Source: Exiguobacterium antarcticum DSM 14480 (GTDB lineage: Bacteria; Bacillota; Bacilli; Exiguobacteriales; Exiguobacteriaceae). Taken from it: a stretch of DNA of 64,000 nt. Where the stretch lies: NCBI RefSeq assembly GCF_000685865.1, contig NZ_JMKS01000005.1:558001-622000 (forward strand), given 5' to 3'. The translations under genes were made by a program, and so were the position numbers. Shown here piece by piece: positions 2,727 to 26,847 of this stretch (the first letter of the stretch is position 1; every line of letters begins with the position of its first letter). Under the pieces are notes generated by a model. It saw only the letters and a program-made list of their open reading frames with translations. It made no database searches and was not told the DNA's origin.

Positions 2727-3908
2727 TCAGTTTCTTATGGAAGCGGATTTATGAACACGGACTCCTTGTAGCGTCCTAAGATCGAAATAGCCGGTCTTAC
2801 GTCTTCCGAAAACGAAACACGTCTGTCCCTCGTAGTGTACCTTGTCGAACAGTTGATAACCGTGGACAAAACGCTCCGCTTTGTTCGCCTTTCTCTTACC
2901 CTTTTTACCGATGGTCATCTTATGCAGTTGACGGTTGTTCGCGCGTACCTGTCGGAAAAGATACGACACCTTCGGTTCTTCCGGTAATGGATTCCCGCTG
3001 ATGCAACGTGCGTCGACAGCATGACGCTTCTCGAGTCCATTTTGAATGCGTATGTTCTTCGTGAGGAAGCCATAGGTCAGTTTGACGTAAGGATACGTTT
3101 CTTTGACAGCATTGTAGATGAACCAACGCATGACTGTCATCTGCGAGGCATCACGGAAAGAACGTGATTTACGTTGGAAAAGATGCTCCAGTTTTTCCTT
3201 GTGAATCTTCTTGTGGCACGTCTCACAGAGTGTGAGGAGATTATCTGGTGCATCCCCACCAGTGCGACGGCTTTCGATATGATGGACGTTCAAGATCTTG
3301 TCCTTCGATTTTCCTTTGCAGTGCTGACAGATGTGCTTGTCTCGGAAGAAGACATATTCCCGGACGTTCCAAAAACCGAGTTGGTCTCCCTTCTGATACA
3401 GATCACCCGATATGTCAGGACTCTTGATCTTTTGGATGTCGAACTGAGCGACTTCAATCGTTAGATGTTTGATCGGCAACAGACGATGAATCATCCGGAT
3501 GAGTTTCAGATGGGCATCGACTTTATGCTGAACGGATGGCGCAAGCCACCCTTTGGGTTTCTTACGATTAAGAAAACGCGCTTGACGGTAACGTGTCTTC
3601 CGGCTTCTTCTTGCGCTTCGCATGGCACGTCGTGTCGCCAATAGGTCTTGGATGTCGGTACGCAGTTGTACTTCTCCTTCGAGCAATACCTTAGTGGATG
3701 TTGTCGCTGAGAAACCGATATGTTTCGTTCCGGCATCAACGCCCAGTGAAATTTCTTGCTTATATCCACTTGATCCGAACAATAGCTGAATGGTGAATGG
3801 AGTTTGTTTGACCAACTTCGCTTTGCTATTGTGTAATAATTTTCGTGCTTTACTTGGTTTGCATGGCATCAATGGTTCACCATGATGGTTTAGTACGAAA
3901 ACGAACAT
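2727..3908 (-). CDS. iscB: RNA-guided endonuclease IscB (HNH-RuvC, OMEGA nuclease)
   Basis: IscB proteins are RNA-guided DNA nucleases of IS605-like elements and the presumed ancestors of Cas9. Every expected part is visible (numbers count from ATG 3908): N-terminal PLMP domain (PLMPCKPSKARKLL, residues 12-25); RuvC-I LGVDAGTKHIGFS with D58; arginine-rich bridge helix about 92-115; RuvC-II LTIEVAQFD with E152; HNH domain about 190-236 with H209/H210 and a CxxC...CxxC pair (C194, C197, C228, C231); RuvC-III KRHAVDA with H296 and D299; and a C-terminal TAM-interaction-like region. At 393 residues it is ordinary for IscB. Nothing catalytic is missing, so it is probably active. AGGAGG at 3916-3921 precedes either a GTG at 3911 or the ATG at 3908; the ATG matches the family start. 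The HNH insert and PLMP domain exclude TnpB. No cas genes or CRISPR array are present, which excludes Cas9. Confidence 0.93.
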   Translation of the reverse strand: MFVFVLNHHGEPLMPCKPSKARKLLHNSKAKLVKQTPFTIQLLFGSSGYKQEISLGVDAGTKHIGFSATTSTKVLLEGEVQLRTDIQDLLATRRAMRSARRSRKTRYRQARFLNRKKPKGWLAPSVQHKVDAHLKLIRMIHRLLPIKHLTIEVAQFDIQKIKSPDISGDLYQKGDQLGFWNVREYVFFRDKHICQHCKGKSKDKILNVHHIESRRTGGDAPDNLLTLCETCHKKIHKEKLEHLFQRKSRSFRDASQMTVMRWFIYNAVKETYPYVKLTYGFLTKNIRIQNGLEKRHAVDARCISGNPLPEEPKVSYLFRQVRANNRQLHKMTIGKKGKRKANKAERFVHGYQLFDKVHYEGQTCFVFGRRKTGYFDLRTLQGVRVHKSASIRN

Positions 3909-3924
3909 CACGTTTTCCTCCTAC

Positions 3925-4140
3925 GAGTTTATTGTTCTTCGTCAATGTTGGAAGGGCTTTTTCCATCTGCAACACCGTCCCGACCCAACAGGACTTTTAA
4001 TTACAGACGACAGAGCAAACGGCTAGAACGGGCACCGAGAGGTGTCATGACCCAACCAACGGAGTTCGTGAGAACTGAGACTAGTCATTTTCAGGCTTTC
4101 ACAAGCCCGTCACTTTAGTGATGGGTAATTGACACATCCT
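3925..4140 (-). ncRNA. HEARO / omega RNA upstream of iscB
   Basis: The 230-bp gap 5' of iscB is not coding, and on the minus strand it has the sequence and hairpin order of HEARO RNAs, the guide RNAs of IscB. Reading 5' to 3': GTGTCAATTACCC (4137-4125); the hairpin CCCATCACT...AGTGACGGG (4127-4107); GGCTT/AAGCC (4107-4094); AGTTC...GAACT (4075-4062); ACACC/GGTGC (4044-4032); and GTCC...GGGAC (3993-3978). The scaffold ends shortly before the iscB ribosome site. By analogy with characterised IscB systems the guide is the roughly 16 nt directly 5' of the scaffold. Here that would be read from the flank at about 4131-4156, covering the end of the permease gene. Ends are approximate. Confidence 0.8.
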
Positions 4141-20181: not shown

Positions 20182-20211
20182 TTGCCGCTGTCGCTTCTTT
20201 CTCTCTATAAT
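20182..20211 (+). promoter_or_regulatory. Candidate promoter of the MBL-SDR-ynj-like operon
   Basis: TTGCCG, an 18-base spacer and a perfect TATAAT (20206-20211), 35 bases before the start codon of the metallo-hydrolase gene. Confidence 0.65.
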
Positions 20212-20246: not shown

Positions 20247-21221
20247 ATGCAACGAGAAGATGAAATCTTCACCTTACCGATTCCGACACCATTTCCTGTC
20301 GGAGACGTCAACTGTTATGTGTTACGAACGGAAACAGAAACGATCTTGATTGATTGTGGTCCGGATACGGAAGAAGCATGGCAAGCGATGCAGCACGGAC
20401 TTCTTAATATTGGGCTAACGGTCTCGATGCTCGATAAAGTAATCGTCACCCATCACCACGCGGACCATGCAGGGCTCGCCTACCGGTTTTCTGAGCAGGG
20501 CATCCCGGTTTATGGACACGCCCGGCTACGCCCTTACTTAGAACAAGATCAATCCTTTTTGAGTCAAGGCGATGCGTTTTTACAGCGGCTCGCCCTCTCG
20601 TTTGGTGTACCGGAAGAAATCCGAGCCCTTTTGCCGAGTTATATATCGGCGTTGAAGTGGCTTGGGAAAGGGCAACTCGACCATCTTTTACAAGAAGGCG
20701 ATTCGATTTCCGCGTCCGGCCGGTATCGGGTAATCGAACTACCGGGGCATGCGAGCGACCAAATCGGAATTCTTAGCCAGTCGGGTGTTTTATTTGCGGC
20801 GGATCATCTGTTAGCGCGAGTCGAACCGAATCCGTTACTGGAACAACCGCAGCCGGGAGATACGTCGGATACGAAACGACCGGTCCTCGCCTATATGCGT
20901 TCCCTTCGTAAACTCCAAGGGGAACAGATCCAGATAGCGTATACAGGTCACGGAGAGGCCATTCGTGACGTCCCCTCTTTGATTGAAGAACGACTCTTAC
21001 AACGAAAAGCACGGGGCGAACAATTATTGAAACACATCACGGGGGAGCAAACGTTGTTTGAACTCGCACAACTGACGTATGGCAACCGCTTAAAAAAATC
21101 CTTCCCGCTCGTCATGAGCGAGATGAAGGCACGACTCGATTATCTGGTCGCGAGTGGACAGATCACAGTCATCAAACGTGACAATGTCTTGCGCTATACG
21201 AGAAAAGGAGCGTTGACATGA
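20247..21221 (+). CDS. MBL-fold metallo-hydrolase (YqjP-like)
   Basis: 324 residues. The metallo-beta-lactamase metal motif VTHHHADHAG is at about residues 71-80, with further ligands in ELPGHASDQIG and FAADHLL. The C-terminal 70 residues form a winged-helix-like tail found in LACTB2-type relatives. Substrate unknown; glyoxalase II-like or nucleolytic activity is possible. It overlaps the next SDR gene by four bases (ATGA), and this MBL-SDR pair matches B. subtilis yqjP-yqjQ. First gene of a run that continues to 26,714. Confidence 0.85.
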   Translation: MQREDEIFTLPIPTPFPVGDVNCYVLRTETETILIDCGPDTEEAWQAMQHGLLNIGLTVSMLDKVIVTHHHADHAGLAYRFSEQGIPVYGHARLRPYLEQDQSFLSQGDAFLQRLALSFGVPEEIRALLPSYISALKWLGKGQLDHLLQEGDSISASGRYRVIELPGHASDQIGILSQSGVLFAADHLLARVEPNPLLEQPQPGDTSDTKRPVLAYMRSLRKLQGEQIQIAYTGHGEAIRDVPSLIEERLLQRKARGEQLLKHITGEQTLFELAQLTYGNRLKKSFPLVMSEMKARLDYLVASGQITVIKRDNVLRYTRKGALT

Positions 21222-21976
21222 ATCTGATCAATAAAACGGTTGTTTTGACTGGTGCGTCAAGTGGTCTTGGAGAAGCGCTTGCCCGAGAATTAAATCGCCA
21301 TGGTGCGCTCTTGATCTTAGTCGCACGACGGGAAGACCGGTTACGCCAAGTAGCGGAGCACTTACATGCTGAATACCTGGTCTACGACTTAGAACATTCA
21401 CCGGAGCGTCTAGTAGACCAAATCGAAGAACAATATGGCATGATTGATGTATTAATCAACAATGCGGGGTTCGGAGAGTTTAGTTTTTTGGAAGACACGA
21501 CGATTGAGACGATTGAATCGATGAACCGGGTTAACGTCCTCAGTCCAATCCGCTTGACGAAAGCCTGTTTACGTCTGCTTCGTCCGCAGGGGATGATCAT
21601 CAACGTGGCCAGTCAAGCAGGAAAGTTACCGACACCGAAGTCGACAATCTATTGTATGACCAAAGCAGCCTTGTATCAATTTTCGAATGCGTTACGTCTC
21701 GAACTGAAGCCAAAAGGCATTCATGTGATGACCGTCAATCCGGGACCAATCGCAACGGAATTCTTCATTCGGGCTGATCTGAGTCGGAAATATGAAAAAA
21801 ATGTCGCGAACATCGTCTTGTCAAAAGACAAGTTGGCACAAACGATCGTCCGCGCGATCATCAAGGAGAAACGGGAAGTCAATGCGCCGTTTTGGATGGA
21901 AGGTTCTGCTAAAGCCTATGCCGTATTTCCGAGAGTGATCGAATGGTTCGGCAAGTCAGGATTTGATAAAAAATAA
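21218..21976 (+). CDS. Short-chain dehydrogenase/reductase (YqjQ/DltE-like)
   Basis: 252 residues. Classical SDR signatures are present: cofactor motif TGASSGLGEAL, NNAG (INNAGFGEF), active-site Ser in NVASQAGKLP and YxxxK in YCMTKAAL. VNPGPIATEFF follows. A C-terminal extension after about residue 205 is basic and amphipathic, as in the DltE/YqjQ subgroup that may sit at the membrane. Substrate unknown. Coupled to the upstream metallo-hydrolase gene; only 15 bp separate it from the lipoprotein gene downstream. Confidence 0.88.
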   Translation: MNLINKTVVLTGASSGLGEALARELNRHGALLILVARREDRLRQVAEHLHAEYLVYDLEHSPERLVDQIEEQYGMIDVLINNAGFGEFSFLEDTTIETIESMNRVNVLSPIRLTKACLRLLRPQGMIINVASQAGKLPTPKSTIYCMTKAALYQFSNALRLELKPKGIHVMTVNPGPIATEFFIRADLSRKYEKNVANIVLSKDKLAQTIVRAIIKEKREVNAPFWMEGSAKAYAVFPRVIEWFGKSGFDKK

Positions 21977-21991
21977 AGGGGAATTTTACGG

Positions 21992-23185
21992 ATGATGAAA
22001 CCAATGATTGGACTCGCAGCAATGGGCATGCTCCTTGCAGGATGTGCTTCTCCGGCAGCGCCGGTACAGGAAAAAGTGCTGGGTTCTTCCTACACGTCGA
22101 TTGAAAAAGAAGCGAACGCGACAACCGTTCGGATGTATATGTGGGGAGGCGACGAGGGCATCAACGCCTATATCGATGAGTATGTGACACCGAAGTTAAA
22201 AAAAGAACATCAGATTACGTTGGAACGTGTCCCGATCGAAACGGCGGACCTTATCCAAAAGCTCCGGGCTGAAAAAAAGGCAGGTAAAAAGACCGGTGTC
22301 ATCGATGTCGTCTGGATCAACGGCGATAATTTCCGGAATGCTAAAAAAGATGGCTTGTTGTATGGCGAGATCACCAAAGTCTTACCGAACATGAAGTATG
22401 TGGACCCGCAAGCACAGGGGTCAGACAGCGGGACAGCGACAGACGAGCTGGAAGCCGCGTGGGGGAAAGTCCAGTATACGTTCCACTACGATCAGGGAAG
22501 TGTCGCGAATCCACCAAAAGATCTCCAGGCGTTAAAAAGCTGGGTCAAACAAAATCCGGGGAAATTCACTTATCCGGAAGTGACCGACTTCACGGGAAAT
22601 GCGTTTGTCCGTCACGTCATGTATGGTGTCGAGTCGAAAGAAACGTTAAAGAACCCGAAAGCCGACTTTAAGAAAACATGGGCTTATCTGAATGAATTGA
22701 AGCCTTATTTATGGAAAGAAGGCAAGACGTATCCGAAGACATTGGCACAACTCGATCAGTTGTACGCAAAAGGGACCGTCTCGTTTACGATGGGTTTCAA
22801 CGAGCGTCGGGCAGAACAAGAAGTGAAATCAGGAACGTTCCCGAAAGAGACACGCCCGTTGATTTTAGACGATGGTTCGATCGCATCGACTCATTTTTTA
22901 TCGATTCCGTTTAATGCCCCGAATCCCAATGGGGCACTCGTCACGATCAATACGTTGTTATCAGCTGAGGCACAGCTGAAGAAATTTGATGCGACCTATT
23001 GGGGCGATGGAACAAGTCTCGATCTCGCGACCTTAGGTTCTGACGCGCAAATGGCGTTCGAAAATGTCCCGGCCGCGGATTCGACACCTAAACCAACCGA
23101 ATTCAAAGGGAAAGTCCGGGCAGAACTCGATCCGGAACTGTTTGATGTCATTCGGAAGGAATGGCCGGAACGTGTGGCGAGGTAA
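21992..23185 (+). CDS. ABC transporter substrate-binding lipoprotein (YnjB-like)
   Basis: 397 residues. A lipoprotein signal (MIGLAAMGMLLAGCAS) gives an acylated Cys near residue 19. The mature protein has a periplasmic-binding-protein fold with YMWGGDEGINAYIDEYV and VVWINGDNFRNAK, both resembling E. coli YnjB, a class distantly related to thiamine and iron binders. The ligand is not established. The two following permeases and ATPase complete an importer. AAGGGGAATTTTACGG precedes the start, and the stop overlaps the next gene by 14 bases. Confidence 0.83.
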   Translation: MMKPMIGLAAMGMLLAGCASPAAPVQEKVLGSSYTSIEKEANATTVRMYMWGGDEGINAYIDEYVTPKLKKEHQITLERVPIETADLIQKLRAEKKAGKKTGVIDVVWINGDNFRNAKKDGLLYGEITKVLPNMKYVDPQAQGSDSGTATDELEAAWGKVQYTFHYDQGSVANPPKDLQALKSWVKQNPGKFTYPEVTDFTGNAFVRHVMYGVESKETLKNPKADFKKTWAYLNELKPYLWKEGKTYPKTLAQLDQLYAKGTVSFTMGFNERRAEQEVKSGTFPKETRPLILDDGSIASTHFLSIPFNAPNPNGALVTINTLLSAEAQLKKFDATYWGDGTSLDLATLGSDAQMAFENVPAADSTPKPTEFKGKVRAELDPELFDVIRKEWPERVAR

Positions 23186-23936
23186 CGCCTGGCCCGCCAC
23201 GTTGTTGATTGCTGGTATGGTCGGCTACGGTCTGTTCGTCAGTCTGTCGATGACGACATGGACCGATTATCGTCAGCTGCTGTCTGACTCCGTGTTTTTA
23301 GAAAGTGTCGGACTGAGCTTATATGTCGCCGTCAGCAGTACCGGATTATCGGTAATGATTGGTGCATTGTTGGCCGCATTTTTTGCCAAACAAACGGGTT
23401 GGACAGCGCAACTCCTGGCAATTCCTTTATTCATCCCGCACCTCGGTGCTGCCTACTTGTCGTTGCTCTATTTAAGTGACCTGCCCGTCATCGGTCCGCA
23501 TGAAGGGAATCACTTCAGCATCATCTTGACGTATCTCTATAAAGAAATCCCGTTTGTCTTCTTTTATCTGTTGCCGGTTTACCGGCGTCTTGATCATCGG
23601 TATGAAGAACTTGGTTTGATGTTAGGTTTATCCCATCTGCGGCGTTTTTGGCATGGGAAAGGTGTTTTTTTACTGTTTCCCGTCCTGGAAGCGGCGTTCA
23701 TCGTCTTTGCCTTTACGTTGTTTGCCTATGAGGTTCCTGCGCTACTCGGAGTGACGTATCCGAAGATGATCGGCGTCTACGCGTTTGATTTATATACGCA
23801 AGGTGATTTATCAAGCCAACCGACGGCTTTTGCGATCAGTGTCGTCTTGACCGGGATGTTGTTTGTCTTGTTACTGCTATTTACACGATTGATCCGACCG
23901 TTGACGGACCGAATCAGTAAGGGGCGATCAGAATGA
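23172..23936 (+). CDS. ABC transporter permease 1 (YnjC-like, first half)
   Basis: About 254 residues with six membrane segments and a permease EAA loop near 165-185 (EELGLMLGLSHLRRFWHGKG). The start is uncertain. GTG 23172 after GGAAGGA is preferred; ATG 23145 and a far upstream ATG at 23064 also lie in frame but overlap the binding-protein gene deeply. In E. coli YnjC both permease halves are one protein of about 510 residues; here they are two genes that overlap by four bases (ATGA at 23933-23936). Confidence 0.82.
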   Translation: MWRGNAWPATLLIAGMVGYGLFVSLSMTTWTDYRQLLSDSVFLESVGLSLYVAVSSTGLSVMIGALLAAFFAKQTGWTAQLLAIPLFIPHLGAAYLSLLYLSDLPVIGPHEGNHFSIILTYLYKEIPFVFFYLLPVYRRLDHRYEELGLMLGLSHLRRFWHGKGVFLLFPVLEAAFIVFAFTLFAYEVPALLGVTYPKMIGVYAFDLYTQGDLSSQPTAFAISVVLTGMLFVLLLLFTRLIRPLTDRISKGRSE

Positions 23937-24679
23937 AGCCGATATTCGTGAAAGGACTAGTAGGTCTTGTTGTCCTCCTTCCTTTGATCGGGCTCCTTCC
24001 GTCGACGTCCGCATTTAATCCGCGTCTGCTCGATACGTTGACGACGACGATCACGATGATTGTCGCGGCGACGTTCCTCAATCATCTGATTGGTTATGGA
24101 GCGGGTAAAGCGATTGCTTTTAAAACAGGACGAACGACTCGACTGATGGAATTACTGATCAGCTTACCGCTCTTTTTGCCGGTCTTGTTGCTGTCGTTTG
24201 GATTGTATCTGACGTGGATCCGGCTAGGACTCGCTGATCAATTCCTCGGCGTCTTGCTTGTGTTGTTATTGCCGACACTGCCGTATACGATCCGGATTTA
24301 CACAAATGGATTTCAGACATTAGGCGAGCAGATGATGGAACAGATGGTCTTAATTGAGCCGAATCGCTTCAAACGGTTCTTTTTCTTGACGGGACCGATG
24401 ATGCGTTCGTCTTTACAATCGGTCACGTTACTTGTGACGGTGATTGCCTTGAGCCAGTATGCACTCGTCACCTTGATTGGCGGGGGTGTCGTCCGGATGA
24501 TCGCGCTCGAAGCGTTTCCGCTGTATAGCGGGAATTCGTTGGCAGCAGCAAAAGAAGCGACGCTCTGGCTGATTGCCTTACCTTTTTTGATTTATTTTGT
24601 TCAACTCATTCTTTTTTTTATATGGGTTCAACTAGTTCGGAGGCTGTTAGATGGACGTTACGATCCAGCACGTAAATAA
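23933..24679 (+). CDS. ABC transporter permease 2 (YnjC-like, second half)
   Basis: 248 residues, about six membrane segments, with a degenerate EAA loop (EQMMEQMVLIEPNRFKRFFF). It pairs with the preceding permease to form the channel of the YnjBCD-like importer. Coupled to the upstream gene by ATGA, and its 3' end overlaps the ATPase gene by 29 bases, unusually long for this operon but with a clear CGGAGG ribosome site for the ATPase inside the overlap. Confidence 0.82.
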   Translation: MKPIFVKGLVGLVVLLPLIGLLPSTSAFNPRLLDTLTTTITMIVAATFLNHLIGYGAGKAIAFKTGRTTRLMELLISLPLFLPVLLLSFGLYLTWIRLGLADQFLGVLLVLLLPTLPYTIRIYTNGFQTLGEQMMEQMVLIEPNRFKRFFFLTGPMMRSSLQSVTLLVTVIALSQYALVTLIGGGVVRMIALEAFPLYSGNSLAAAKEATLWLIALPFLIYFVQLILFFIWVQLVRRLLDGRYDPARK

Positions 24680-25541
24680 AACATTTGGTCAAAAAAAAGT
24701 CTTACATGAGATTGATTTAACGATTCCATCGGGCCGTTGTGTAGCACTCGTCGGTCCTAGTGGGAGCGGGAAAACGACCTTATTACGACTGATTGCCGGA
24801 TTGGAGAAGGTCTCGAGTGGGGCGATCCATTTCGGAGCGACAGAGATGACACGGGTCGCACCGAACCAGCGGGGGGTGACGATGCTGTTTCAGCGTCCGT
24901 TATTGTTTCCGCATCTGACGGTCGGACAAAACGTCCGGCTTGGAATGAAAGCTGGTCACAAGCAGGAGGTAGAGCAGTGGTTGGACCGGGTCGGGTTAAG
25001 CGGACGAGCGGACGCCTTTGTCCATGAATTGTCCGGTGGTGAACAGCAACGGGCGAGCTTGGCCCGTGCGTTGGCAAGCCGACCGAATTTTTTATTGCTC
25101 GACGAACCGTTCTCAAGTCTCGATTTACCACGGCGACGTGAACTGCGGACATTGATCCGACGTTTGACAGAGGCGCAAGGCGTGACGACCTTGCTCGTGA
25201 CACATGACCGGGAAGAAGCGATGGCAATGGCGGATTATGTCTACGTCATGGAACAGGGGCATATCATCGATCAGGGAAATCCGGTTCAACTGGCAGAAAA
25301 AAGTCCGTTTTTTGGAGACGGTGTTCATTTGAGCGGCGAATGGTATCCCTTGTCGGGAGTAAAGTTAGCCTTAAGACCGACGAATGACTTACAAGAACGT
25401 GTTACGATTACGAAAGAGCTGATCCAGTATGGCGTTCGTTTTTATGAAGTCGAACGCGACACGGGAGAACGTCTTGTCGTGCAGACGATGGAGACGTTCC
25501 AGGAAACGACGACAGCTTATATCGTCAGGAAGGAGGGGTAG
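24651..25541 (+). CDS. ABC transporter ATP-binding protein (YnjD-like)
   Basis: 296 residues. Walker A GPSGSGKTTLL is at about 37-47, Q-loop LFQRPLLFPHLTVGQN, signature LSGGEQQRASLARAL, Walker B LLLDEPFSSLD, and H-loop VTHDREEAMAMA. A C-terminal 80-residue extension resembles the regulatory OB-type region of MalK/thiamine-type ATPases. It energises the two preceding permeases. Only one base separates its TAG from the next gene's ATG. Confidence 0.9.
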   Translation: MDVTIQHVNKTFGQKKVLHEIDLTIPSGRCVALVGPSGSGKTTLLRLIAGLEKVSSGAIHFGATEMTRVAPNQRGVTMLFQRPLLFPHLTVGQNVRLGMKAGHKQEVEQWLDRVGLSGRADAFVHELSGGEQQRASLARALASRPNFLLLDEPFSSLDLPRRRELRTLIRRLTEAQGVTTLLVTHDREEAMAMADYVYVMEQGHIIDQGNPVQLAEKSPFFGDGVHLSGEWYPLSGVKLALRPTNDLQERVTITKELIQYGVRFYEVERDTGERLVVQTMETFQETTTAYIVRKEG

Positions 25542-25542
25542 T

Positions 25543-26124
25543 ATGTTAGATACACGGGCCAGAAAATTCGTCCAGCCCCTTTTTGAGCAAATTGCGACAT
25601 TATTGAAGAAGATGGGACTTTCGGCGAATCAAGTGACCATCATTTCCGGAATCATTGGCGCCTCGACCGGTTTTTTTGTTTATAACGATATGATGGGAAT
25701 TGCAATCTTACTATTATGGATTTCCGGGATGCTTGACGTCGTGGACGGAACAATGGCACGGCGTGAAAAGACGACACCGATCGGGACGATCCTTGATTTA
25801 GTCCTGGATCGTATCGTCGAATTGTCCGTTTTGATTGGGATTGCCCTTCGTTTTCCGGAGACACAGGTCGTCATCTTGTTTTTGATTGCTTCGTTTGTGA
25901 TCGGTATGACGATGTTTCTTGCCATCGGTGCAGTCAGTGACAATTATGGATTTAAATCGTTCCAGTACCAACCGGGTCTTGTCGAACGGACGGAAGGTTT
26001 CCTTTTTCTAACCGCGATGTTATTGTTTCCGAGTGCCATCATTTGGATTGCGATCGTCTTCTTGATTGCTGAACTGTATACGGTCGGAGAACGGTTTTAT
26101 CAAGCTTCGAAGGTATTACGATGA
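25543..26124 (+). CDS. CDP-alcohol phosphatidyltransferase family membrane protein (YnjF-like)
   Basis: 193 residues from ATG 25543, which follows GGAAGGAGGGG; the frame extends further upstream but without need. The family signature D(x)2DG(x)2AR(x)8G(x)3D(x)3D is complete: DVVDGTMARREKT, then GTILDLVLDR. Several membrane helices surround it. These enzymes transfer a phospho-alcohol from a CDP-lipid or to an alcohol in the membrane; the substrate cannot be deduced. Its place after an YnjBCD-like importer matches the E. coli ynjBCD-ynjF neighbourhood, which suggests a shared role. Confidence 0.85.
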   Translation: MLDTRARKFVQPLFEQIATLLKKMGLSANQVTIISGIIGASTGFFVYNDMMGIAILLLWISGMLDVVDGTMARREKTTPIGTILDLVLDRIVELSVLIGIALRFPETQVVILFLIASFVIGMTMFLAIGAVSDNYGFKSFQYQPGLVERTEGFLFLTAMLLFPSAIIWIAIVFLIAELYTVGERFYQASKVLR

Positions 26125-26714
26125 GTGAATCGGAACAACTGATGGTGGTCGATGTATCCGGTCGTCCGCTTTACCGGGCTACCCGACAAACGGTGCATAC
26201 GAAAGGGCTGTGGCACGAGACGTTTCACTGTTTTGTCGTTGATCTTGAAAAGGGATATGTTCTTTTACAGCAACGGGCAAAACAGAAAAAAGATTTTCCC
26301 GAGTTACTCGATATCACGGCAGCAGGACATCTGCTGGCAGGCGAGACACCGGCAGAGGGGGTCCGAGAACTCGAAGAAGAGATCGGTCTCGTCCGGGCGT
26401 TCGAAGACTTGTATCCGATCGGCGTCTTTTTGGAAGAGTTGATTTTCCCTGATTTGCTGGATCGTGAACGGGTTCATTTGTTCATCACGGATTCATCGGA
26501 GCCGTTGCATCGTTATGTCTTGCAGTCGACGGAAGTCAGTCGATTGGTAGCTTTTTCTTTTTCTGAATTCGCCCGACTAACAGAAGACGGGACGGACGAA
26601 TTGGTCACGGTCGGTCAAGAAATCATCCGCCGGGAACAATTTGTGCCCCACCCGGTGCGTTACTGGAGAAAAGTCAACGAAGGGATTCGCGCCTATCGTG
26701 CACGAAAAACTTAA
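26121..26714 (+). CDS. NUDIX hydrolase (isopentenyl-diphosphate isomerase-like, YfcD type)
   Basis: 197 residues. The Nudix box GHLLAGETPAEGVRELEEEIGL contains the GxxxxxExxxxxxxREUxEExGU pattern exactly. The region before it (HETFHCFVVD, LLQQRAKQKKDFPELLDITAAG) is like the IPP-isomerase-type NUDIX group that also includes E. coli YfcD. It would hydrolyse a nucleoside-diphosphate-linked substrate; which one is unknown. Coupled by ATGA to the phosphatidyltransferase gene and last in the operon, ahead of a terminator. Confidence 0.88.
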   Translation: MSESEQLMVVDVSGRPLYRATRQTVHTKGLWHETFHCFVVDLEKGYVLLQQRAKQKKDFPELLDITAAGHLLAGETPAEGVRELEEEIGLVRAFEDLYPIGVFLEELIFPDLLDRERVHLFITDSSEPLHRYVLQSTEVSRLVAFSFSEFARLTEDGTDELVTVGQEIIRREQFVPHPVRYWRKVNEGIRAYRARKT

Positions 26715-26718
26715 CATG

Positions 26719-26760
26719 AGGGCTGCGGCGCAAATCAATGCGGCAGTCCTTTTTTCTTTT
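26719..26760 (+). terminator. Terminator after the NUDIX gene
   Basis: GGGCTGC pairs with GCAGTCC, inner CGCA/TGCG, followed by a run of six T and a second T-run. Confidence 0.9.
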
Positions 26761-26847
26761 TAGAGGCAAAGCTAGGCAGAAAGTAGCATATTGGTCTATT
26801 CTTTGAGATAATTAACAATATATATATGATGAAAGAAGGTGCAGCCA

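Follow-up and report, generated by a model that had tools for sequence, protein, structure and literature searches.

The closest described relative of the system considered here is the ynj cluster of Escherichia coli. In the K-12 record, ynjA, ynjB, ynjC, ynjD and ynjE lie on one strand and are followed by ynjF on the opposite strand and then by nudG; YnjBCD and YnjF are annotated there as putative or by domain only. The transporter corresponds to COG4134/4135/4136 (PMC9207381), the ydjXYZ-ynjABCD operon together with ynjE is activated by FNR (PMC3688515), ynjA and ynjB rise slightly (1.6 fold and 1.4 fold) in a study of BaeR (PMC2731931), and an allele of ynjC alters colistin fitness (PMC9184624). 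The last paper states that the substrate has not been studied directly, and cites an annotation of ynjC for the transport of sulfate, thiosulfate or thiamine. In the open PMC literature, searched under the gene and operon names, we found no substrate for YnjBCD.

Here we describe a homologous locus in the 3.2 Mb genome of Exiguobacterium antarcticum DSM 14480. It lies in a stretch of 64,000 nucleotides (contig NZ_JMKS01000005.1, positions 558,001 to 622,000), hereafter the window. It encodes a genuine YnjBCD-YnjF system, a new member of a kind already known though not yet characterised, and the new and useful result is the strong linkage between the importer YnjBCD and the phosphatidyltransferase YnjF. 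The five core genes, recognised in an earlier note made from the sequence, are indeed present at positions 21992-26124, on one strand and overlapping or nearly so:

21992..23185, + strand: YnjB solute-binding lipoprotein with lipobox LAGC (NF008633; AlphaFold2)
23172..23936, + strand: PermA permease, N-terminal half of YnjC (half-specific profiles)
23933..24679, + strand: PermB permease, C-terminal half of YnjC (PF00528, E 1.7e-6; half-specific profiles)
24651..25541, + strand: YnjD-like ATP-binding cassette (ABC) ATPase, 296 aa (PF00005, E 1.8e-36)
25543..26124, + strand: YnjF, a cytidine diphosphate (CDP)-alcohol phosphatidyltransferase, 193 aa (PF01066; tree; catalytic motif 8/8)

Two of these starts differ from the longest open reading frames (ORFs). 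The PermA frame is open from ATG 23064, and the start is probably GTG 23172, which has GGAAGG 12 bases upstream; for ynjF, ATG 25543 was taken, the ORF-list start at 25429 being judged too early.

Identity of YnjBCD and YnjF

The lipoprotein belongs to the YnjB family. It matches NCBIfam NF008633 with 418.7 bits (cut-off 203) over model positions 10-395 of 397, and is 35% identical to E. coli K-12 YnjB over 374 aa (E 5e-65). With the receptors of Exiguobacterium sp. RIT594 and E. sibiricum it shares 89% and 88% identity, respectively. Residues invariant in 65 YnjB rows include Gly52, Gly53, Asn58, Trp108, Asn110, Asn113, Phe114, Asp199, Phe200 and Trp241. A single-sequence search of the PDB with the window YnjB yielded no relative (20 matches, the top one an antibody chain at E 0.018). 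The AlphaFold2 model, with a mean predicted local distance difference test score of 92.9, matches solute-binding protein folds, namely those of PotD/PotF/SpuD, AfuA, UgpB and SmoF (Foldseek E values as low as 6e-17 and VIA Z scores reaching 28.9).

The two permeases correspond to the two halves of E. coli YnjC. Profiles were derived from the loci surveyed in which the permease is split, with 98 rows for PermA and 92 for PermB, among them those of the window. The PermA profile matches YnjC residues 30-267 with 94.8 bits (at best 23.7 for the other half) and the PermB profile residues 304-503 with 89.9 bits (at best 22.0), so that each finds its own half, in order. PermA has no Pfam match of its own at 0.001. 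In the window YnjC is not fused into one chain but encoded by two genes, as the earlier note saw. This is a widespread trait of the family and not peculiar to this Firmicute: 93 of 103 classified rows are split and 10 fused. On a tree obtained by a quick method, fusion requires two changes, the first within Proteobacteria and the second within a group of Bacillaceae; 19 of 122 rows, some possibly fused, were left out as unclassified, and the Klebsiella permease was counted as fused because its gene table, which is incomplete, leaves a gap of 1.5 kb. Two separate genes are the norm among the rows sampled, and fusion arose at least twice. As a separate observation, at four loci (L061, L053, L163 and L164) a TusA/YedF-like protein beside ynjBCD stands between two Sulf_transp (YeeE/YedE-like) proteins of half length; here, too, a transporter that is usually longer may be split, judging by the protein scan of L061 only.

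The ATPase is YnjD-like by domain (PF00005), by 33% identity to E. coli YnjD over 198 aa (E 1e-30) and by its place in the operon. None of the 25 NCBIfam matches listed, out of 191, is to a model named after YnjD.

The phosphatidyltransferase is 29% identical to E. coli YnjF over 181 aa (E 6e-17), and a tree of 85 CDP-alcohol enzymes confirms the relationship. The tree comprised a selection of 50 ynjB-linked rows, the window protein and E. coli YnjF among them, and 30 of the 33 background matches from ten genomes, three without a locus being dropped. All 50 linked rows fall into one clade with E. coli YnjF, apart from PgsA (59 rows, support 99/99, stem 2.71, with the caveat that long branches meet and the bootstrap had not settled). 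Eight more rows of this clade, seven of them background copies from the ten genomes and one the copy in the genome of the window, likewise all represent ynjB-linked genes. E. coli YnbA, on a branch of 4.42, is also inside the clade and is unlinked. A Rhodobacter enzyme that does not adjoin ynjB (L221) branches as the weakly supported sister of the clade. Outside are the PgsA group, with 15 rows, and another group, whose 10 rows include no named reference and which we take to be of the PssA type. The catalytic motif D-x2-DG-x2-AR ... G-x3-D-x3-D is intact in 77 of 77 YnjF sequences.

Linkage of YnjB with YnjF and other partners

The association was quantified in 398 Bacillota genomes, drawn evenly from a larger group. 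YnjB exceeds the cut-off in 30 of them. The YnjF profile finds 25 genomes at E 1e-15, of which 23 are strong (E 8e-44 or better); the remaining two, with weak values of about 1e-17 to 1e-16, were set aside. YnjB is over the cut-off in 21 of these 23 (hypergeometric p 8e-26). By genus, 16 of 17 YnjF genera are among the 24 YnjB genera of 267 (p 6e-19); both values are uncorrected for the species tree. One of the two exceptions (G119) carries a decaying ynjB at C1:1258539-1261578, broken into four fragments of which two contain a stop codon, and a partial ynjF lies about 2 kb away; the other (G296) has a partial YnjF and no YnjB over the cut-off. Closer to the window, YnjB is over the cut-off in every one of the 37 genomes sampled from the window's family, that of the window among them, and in 40 of 61 relatives overall.

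The same association is seen in the neighbourhoods. We gathered 122 ynjB loci and kept 113; nine were dropped because their C-terminal 200 residues were identical to another row or no solute-binding protein frame was called. Genes were taken as longest ORFs and clustered by BLAST and community detection, so that some clusters could contain remote members and a gene could be masked by an antisense ORF. The counts include receptors below the NF008633 cut-off (L088, L089) and contigs ending near the gene. YnjF lies within eight genes of ynjB at 72 of the 113 loci and in the same-strand run at 60. The background is 33 CDP-alcohol genes of all kinds in ten genomes of about 36 Mb, or about 0.015 expected per 17 kb.

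TVP38/DedA proteins, thought to move phospholipids between membrane leaflets, are within eight genes of ynjB at 62 of the 113 loci (background: 44 genes in the ten genomes, about 0.02 expected per 17 kb). In two genomes (G208, G456) the sole DedA gene is within about 12 kb of ynjB, as are both DedA genes of a third (G330). Within the same distance of eight genes, a flavin disulfide-reductase-like protein occurs at 32 loci and a TIGR03169-like flavoprotein at 26. Other neighbours are a CCG Fe-S protein (16 loci), an APH kinase (13), a nucleoside hydrolase (10) and YdjY (8); partner names come from one or two representatives per cluster, except that YdjY is named after its E. coli member. At nine loci, eight of Planococcus/Planomicrobium and one of Desulfofustis, the reductase ORF is extended, with 627 to 713 residues. 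We reject an identity of the reductase with MerA: its representative stays below the MerA cut-off (364.4 versus 454.45 bits), and a C-terminal cysteine pair, which we take to be a MerA feature, is not shown in the family consensus. In two Halodesulfovibrio loci (L137, L139) ynjB is followed by a nucleoside hydrolase, and no permease of the ynj clusters was recognised adjacent to it.

The linkage extends beyond Bacillota. The best 80 matches of a scan of named genomes, ranked by similarity to the query and thus favouring Bacillota, include Desulfobacterota, Spirochaetota, Chloroflexota, Rhodobacteraceae and Rubrobacter. A plasmid collection, of which 10 of 134 matching records with incomplete gene tables were read, adds Fusobacteriota, Deinococcota, Rhizobiales, Alteromonadales and Enterobacterales. 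Seven of these ten plasmid neighbourhoods have a CDP-alcohol gene near ynjB and six have TVP38 (Fusobacteriota, Gamma- and Alphaproteobacteria, Bacillota). Pseudoalteromonas and Catenovulum records name a TVP38/FAD oxidoreductase fusion upstream of ynjB, a fused ynjC, ynjD, ynjF and a sterol desaturase family protein (Pfam FA_hydroxylase in Pseudoalteromonas). TVP38-reductase fusions were noted in a survey whose accessible portions do not mention ynjBCD (PMC10127716). YnjB-YnjF linkage recurs in Bacillota, Fusobacteriota, Spirochaetota and Pseudomonadota. The conservation across long distances proposed in the earlier note is borne out.

Proposed cargo of the importer and product of YnjF

We hold with moderate confidence that YnjBCD imports a small alcohol, or a precursor of one, that YnjF joins to CDP-diacylglycerol. 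The transporter would be an ABC importer composed of a lipoprotein receptor, two permeases and one ATPase, and its cargo would either be the acceptor alcohol of YnjF or be made into it. The resulting phospholipid would differ from the products of the genome's two further CDP-alcohol enzymes, one PgsA and one presumably of the PssA type. In many lineages TVP38/DedA and one or two flavin disulfide-reductase-like enzymes would complete the set, TVP38 perhaps flipping the phospholipid made by YnjF. That the pump feeds YnjF is suggested because the two travel together across several phyla. The intact catalytic motif, the TVP38/DedA neighbours, the grouping of ynjABCDEFI in E. coli genetic interactions (PMC3930520) and the colistin effect of the ynjC allele (PMC9184624) also count in favour. 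The earlier note had tied the transported compound to a CDP-alcohol or a nucleotide-activated lipid head group; the first half gains from the 21 of 23 YnjF genomes with YnjB, and the second finds no such backing. Of the two findings that the note named as counting against it, a lipoprotein of another family and a phosphatidyltransferase outside the YnjF cluster, neither was obtained.

The acceptor site bears on the nature of the cargo. In a profile search of solved structures, the closest to YnjF are phosphatidylinositol-phosphate (PIP) synthases (Mycobacterium tuberculosis PgsA1, PDB 6h53, E 6.5e-17). Inositol phosphate is bound there by R155 and R195 above all, with R94, S132, K135, R137 and R152 (PMC6506517, PMC4634129). 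When these residues are mapped onto YnjF by the printed alignment, the equivalents of R155 and K135 are basic in none of 77 sequences, the former being Gly, Thr, Cys or Ala throughout, and S132 is kept in three. YnjF therefore lacks part of the PIP synthase residue set and is unlikely to be an inositol-phosphate enzyme. A phosphorylated acceptor of the inositol-phosphate type is less likely because R155 and K135 are missing, and the cargo is probably not a phosphorylated polyol.

Several observations weigh against the proposed import of a YnjF acceptor. Other basic acceptor positions of the PIP synthases are retained in YnjF: R94 and R152 in 69 of 77 sequences (the five rows shown from Proteobacteria have Phe and Gly instead), a basic residue at R137 in 63 and R195 in 76, so the acceptor may still be charged. 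YnjF is absent from the vicinity of ynjB at 41 of 113 loci and in three of ten plasmid neighbourhoods (Deinococcus, Sinorhizobium, Peptoclostridium), and nine of the 30 YnjB Bacillota genomes have no strong YnjF. In eight of these nine, the APH kinase, nucleoside hydrolase or TIGR04282/TIGR04283 cluster is found in the vicinity of ynjB; the ynjB of the ninth (G142) is truncated at a contig end. In the window genome a relative of the reductase (C3:1237561, 50% identity) and two of TVP38 (C3:1144284, 60%; C3:666711, 49%) lie away from the locus. The modelled receptor appears neutral with respect to ligand class, its fold being common to receptors of organic ligands and of ions: in the structure comparison sugar, sugar-phosphate, polyamine, iron and thiamine receptors rank near each other. 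An Rfam search of 16 related loci at gathering scores found no riboswitch, only two T-box leaders and nine tRNAs, and a search of the window for a riboswitch naming the cargo gave, at gathering score, a lone match to HEARO RNA far from the locus. Finally, some loci carry sulfur-type neighbours (rhodanese at 21 of 113, YeeE/YedE-like at 10, TusA-like at 8), and E. coli ynjABCDEFI form one group of a genetic interaction network together with the suf genes (PMC3930520), that is, with Suf iron-sulfur assembly and not with lipid synthesis.

The last two points belong to the best of the alternatives, which we nevertheless consider unlikely: that the cargo of YnjBCD is a compound of sulfur or selenium, or else a redox-active ion of another kind, and serves sulfur relay or the metabolism of Fe-S or selenium, with YnjF and TVP38 as separate envelope genes of the same island. 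Besides the sulfur-type neighbours, including TusA/YedF-like and CCG/Fe-S proteins, single representatives match YedE/FdhT, YedF, ExtH and Nterm_to_SelD in NCBIfam, all below cut-off. E. coli ynjE is a sulfurtransferase gene, and FNR activation and the quoted ynjC annotation fit as well (PMC3688515, PMC9184624). However, the sulfur partners are patchy in comparison with YnjB in 21 of 23 YnjF genomes, none of them occurs at the window locus, and the receptor fold is neutral.

The lipid and sulfur elements can also be combined. YnjBCD-YnjF with TVP38, the flavoenzyme, whose redox pair is C-x4-C, an AhpD-like protein and rhodanese/TusA might build, flip and reduce a thiol- or persulfide-bearing phospholipid with an imported head group. 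We regard this as doubtful; if true, it would amount to an unrecognised system for a redox-active membrane lipid.

A further possibility, which strikes us as rather improbable, is a nucleoside or ribose-like cargo, used in some lineages by a nucleoside hydrolase, an APH-type kinase and TIGR04282/TIGR04283, families named by NCBI after arsenosugar biosynthesis, and in others attached to lipid by YnjF. YnjF and this group avoid each other: 70 of the 113 loci have YnjF only, 16 the group only, 2 both and 25 neither (Fisher p 8e-7). Representatives exceed the cut-offs of TIGR04283 (244.3 versus 182) and TIGR04282 (170.1 versus 134), the nucleoside hydrolase and APH were identified by Pfam, and in Peptoclostridium the nucleoside hydrolase adjoins ynjB. 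The avoidance of the kinase-hydrolase-glycosyltransferase group by YnjF is a lead, but it follows lineages, which overstates independence. One of the loci with both (L069) rests on a single GT2-cluster gene, and the 16 loci searched with Rfam lack a nucleoside-related riboswitch at gathering scores.

We give still less credence to an importer of polyamine- or thiamine-like cations, with YnjF hitch-hiking in a mobile island. In its favour, the YnjB profile scores best in the PDB against SpuD, PotD, a receptor for putrescine/spermidine and one from Clostridium (E about 3e-4 to 5e-4), and the NCBIfam matches of the permeases and ATPase are to polyamine, thiamine, sulfate, tungstate and 2-aminoethylphosphonate systems, all below cut-off. 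Deletion of ynjC is also reported to have lowered the uptake of one of two cationic dyes (PMC9184624). However, the residues that we take to be the PotD ligand residues, Trp255 and Asp257, are kept in none of the 65 YnjB rows: by profile alignment only, their equivalents are Asn in 59, Ser in 5 and Gly in 1, and His in 58 and Asn in 7. This speaks against a PotD-type polyamine receptor. The association of YnjB with YnjF also goes beyond adjacency, being found by co-occurrence and in distant phyla.

If the cargo is the acceptor of YnjF, as we propose, one answer would name both substrates at once. Since the linkage is found in Bacillota, Fusobacteriota, Spirochaetota and Pseudomonadota, that answer would apply widely, and the outcome may be a phospholipid head group not now listed for these bacteria.

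Flanking genes and comparison with known systems

The core genes are flanked by three further genes and two candidate signals:

20182..20211, + strand: promoter-like site TTGCCG-18-TATAAT upstream of the MBL gene (consensus match only)
20247..21221, + strand: metallo-beta-lactamase-fold (MBL) hydrolase, first gene of the run (Pfam PF00753, E 3.7e-20)
21218..21976, + strand: short-chain dehydrogenase/reductase (SDR), ending 15 bases before ynjB (Pfam PF00106, E 1.6e-46)
26121..26714, + strand: NUDIX hydrolase, isopentenyl diphosphate (IPP)-isomerase/YfcD-like (PF00293, E 2.7e-12)
26718..26751, + strand: intrinsic-terminator-like hairpin followed by a T run (minimum free energy, shuffles)

The order on the + strand is thus MBL hydrolase, SDR, ynjB, PermA, PermB, ATPase, ynjF and NUDIX, with overlaps (the MBL stop overlaps the SDR start) or short gaps, and the genes from MBL to NUDIX are probably transcribed as one unit. 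The promoter scan of the region gave 9 sites versus 7.8 expected from shuffles, no clear excess. The hairpin region (26712-26768) has a minimum free energy of -20.2 kcal/mol (z -2.83; 4 of 200 shuffles equally low), and the hairpin is absent among the 15 sites given by a general terminator scan. Among the surveyed loci, an MBL gene before SDR and ynjB is found only in the window's family. The window locus resembles a reduced version of the island that has its own MBL and SDR genes. In a defence library YnjB and YnjF have no match and the MBL gene has two marginal ones. Elsewhere in the window, an IscB-like protein of 394 aa with RRXRR and HNH domains is encoded on the - strand, directly behind a HEARO RNA (3927-4133, - strand; 126.6 bits, gathering 83 in Rfam). 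The unit (2727-4133) is likely an RNA-guided nuclease of what we take to be the OMEGA type.

The NUDIX gene does follow ynjF, as the earlier note observed, but it is not part of a conserved set. Its cluster is found at 7 of the 113 loci, all of the window's genus, although at one locus (L087) the gene may have been missed, an ORF on the other strand being taken instead. Six loci of the sister genus (L082, L083, L085, L094, L095, L127) have an FAD oxidoreductase at this position (Pfam Pyr_redox_2, scanned on L092, a duplicate dropped from the counts). The protein scores below every NCBIfam cut-off listed (NF002995: 52.8 bits, cut-off 127), and its match to NudG covers 47 aa at E 0.31; it is therefore not NudG by whole-protein homology. 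Although its start overlaps the ynjF stop, and nudG, on which the earlier note was silent, adjoins ynjF in E. coli, as does a pyrimidine triphosphate diphosphatase gene in Klebsiella, the full proposal of a nucleotide-activated head group with the NUDIX enzyme in its pathway is very improbable, being unsupported because NUDIX is seen only in the window's genus, and we reject a NUDIX role in the conserved system.

Several described proteins resemble components of the locus. The receptor shares its fold with the polyamine receptors PotD/PotF/SpuD, the hexose-phosphate receptor AfuA, UgpB and SmoF, at 8-20% identity in the rows listed. YnjF has the same eight-residue catalytic motif as PIP synthase (MtPgsA1, 6h53) and archaetidylinositol-phosphate synthase. 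It differs from MtPgsA1 in the acceptor residues given above, with R155 and K135 never basic and S132 rare, and the window protein scores below the NCBIfam cut-offs of both families (archaetidylinositol 92.2 bits, cut-off 180; PIP 61.8 bits, cut-off 170).

The nearest system remains that of E. coli, ydjXYZ-ynjABCD with ynjE and ynjF. YnjB, the YnjC halves, YnjD and YnjF are homologous to the proteins of the window, and the E. coli TVP38 proteins YdjX and YdjZ cluster with the TVP38 proteins found near ynjB elsewhere. The gene identities of the earlier note stand, while its enterobacterial gene order does not: the window and K-12 share the core genes but not their arrangement, as ynjE lies between ynjD and ynjF in K-12 and ynjF is behind it on the other strand. 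In E. coli the permease is fused and NudG is another kind of NUDIX protein. YnjD is 217 aa long versus 296 aa for the window ATPase, and no lipobox was recognised in the YnjB of E. coli, whereas that of the window has LAGC. Unlike E. coli, the window locus contains MBL and SDR genes and lacks TVP38 and rhodanese.

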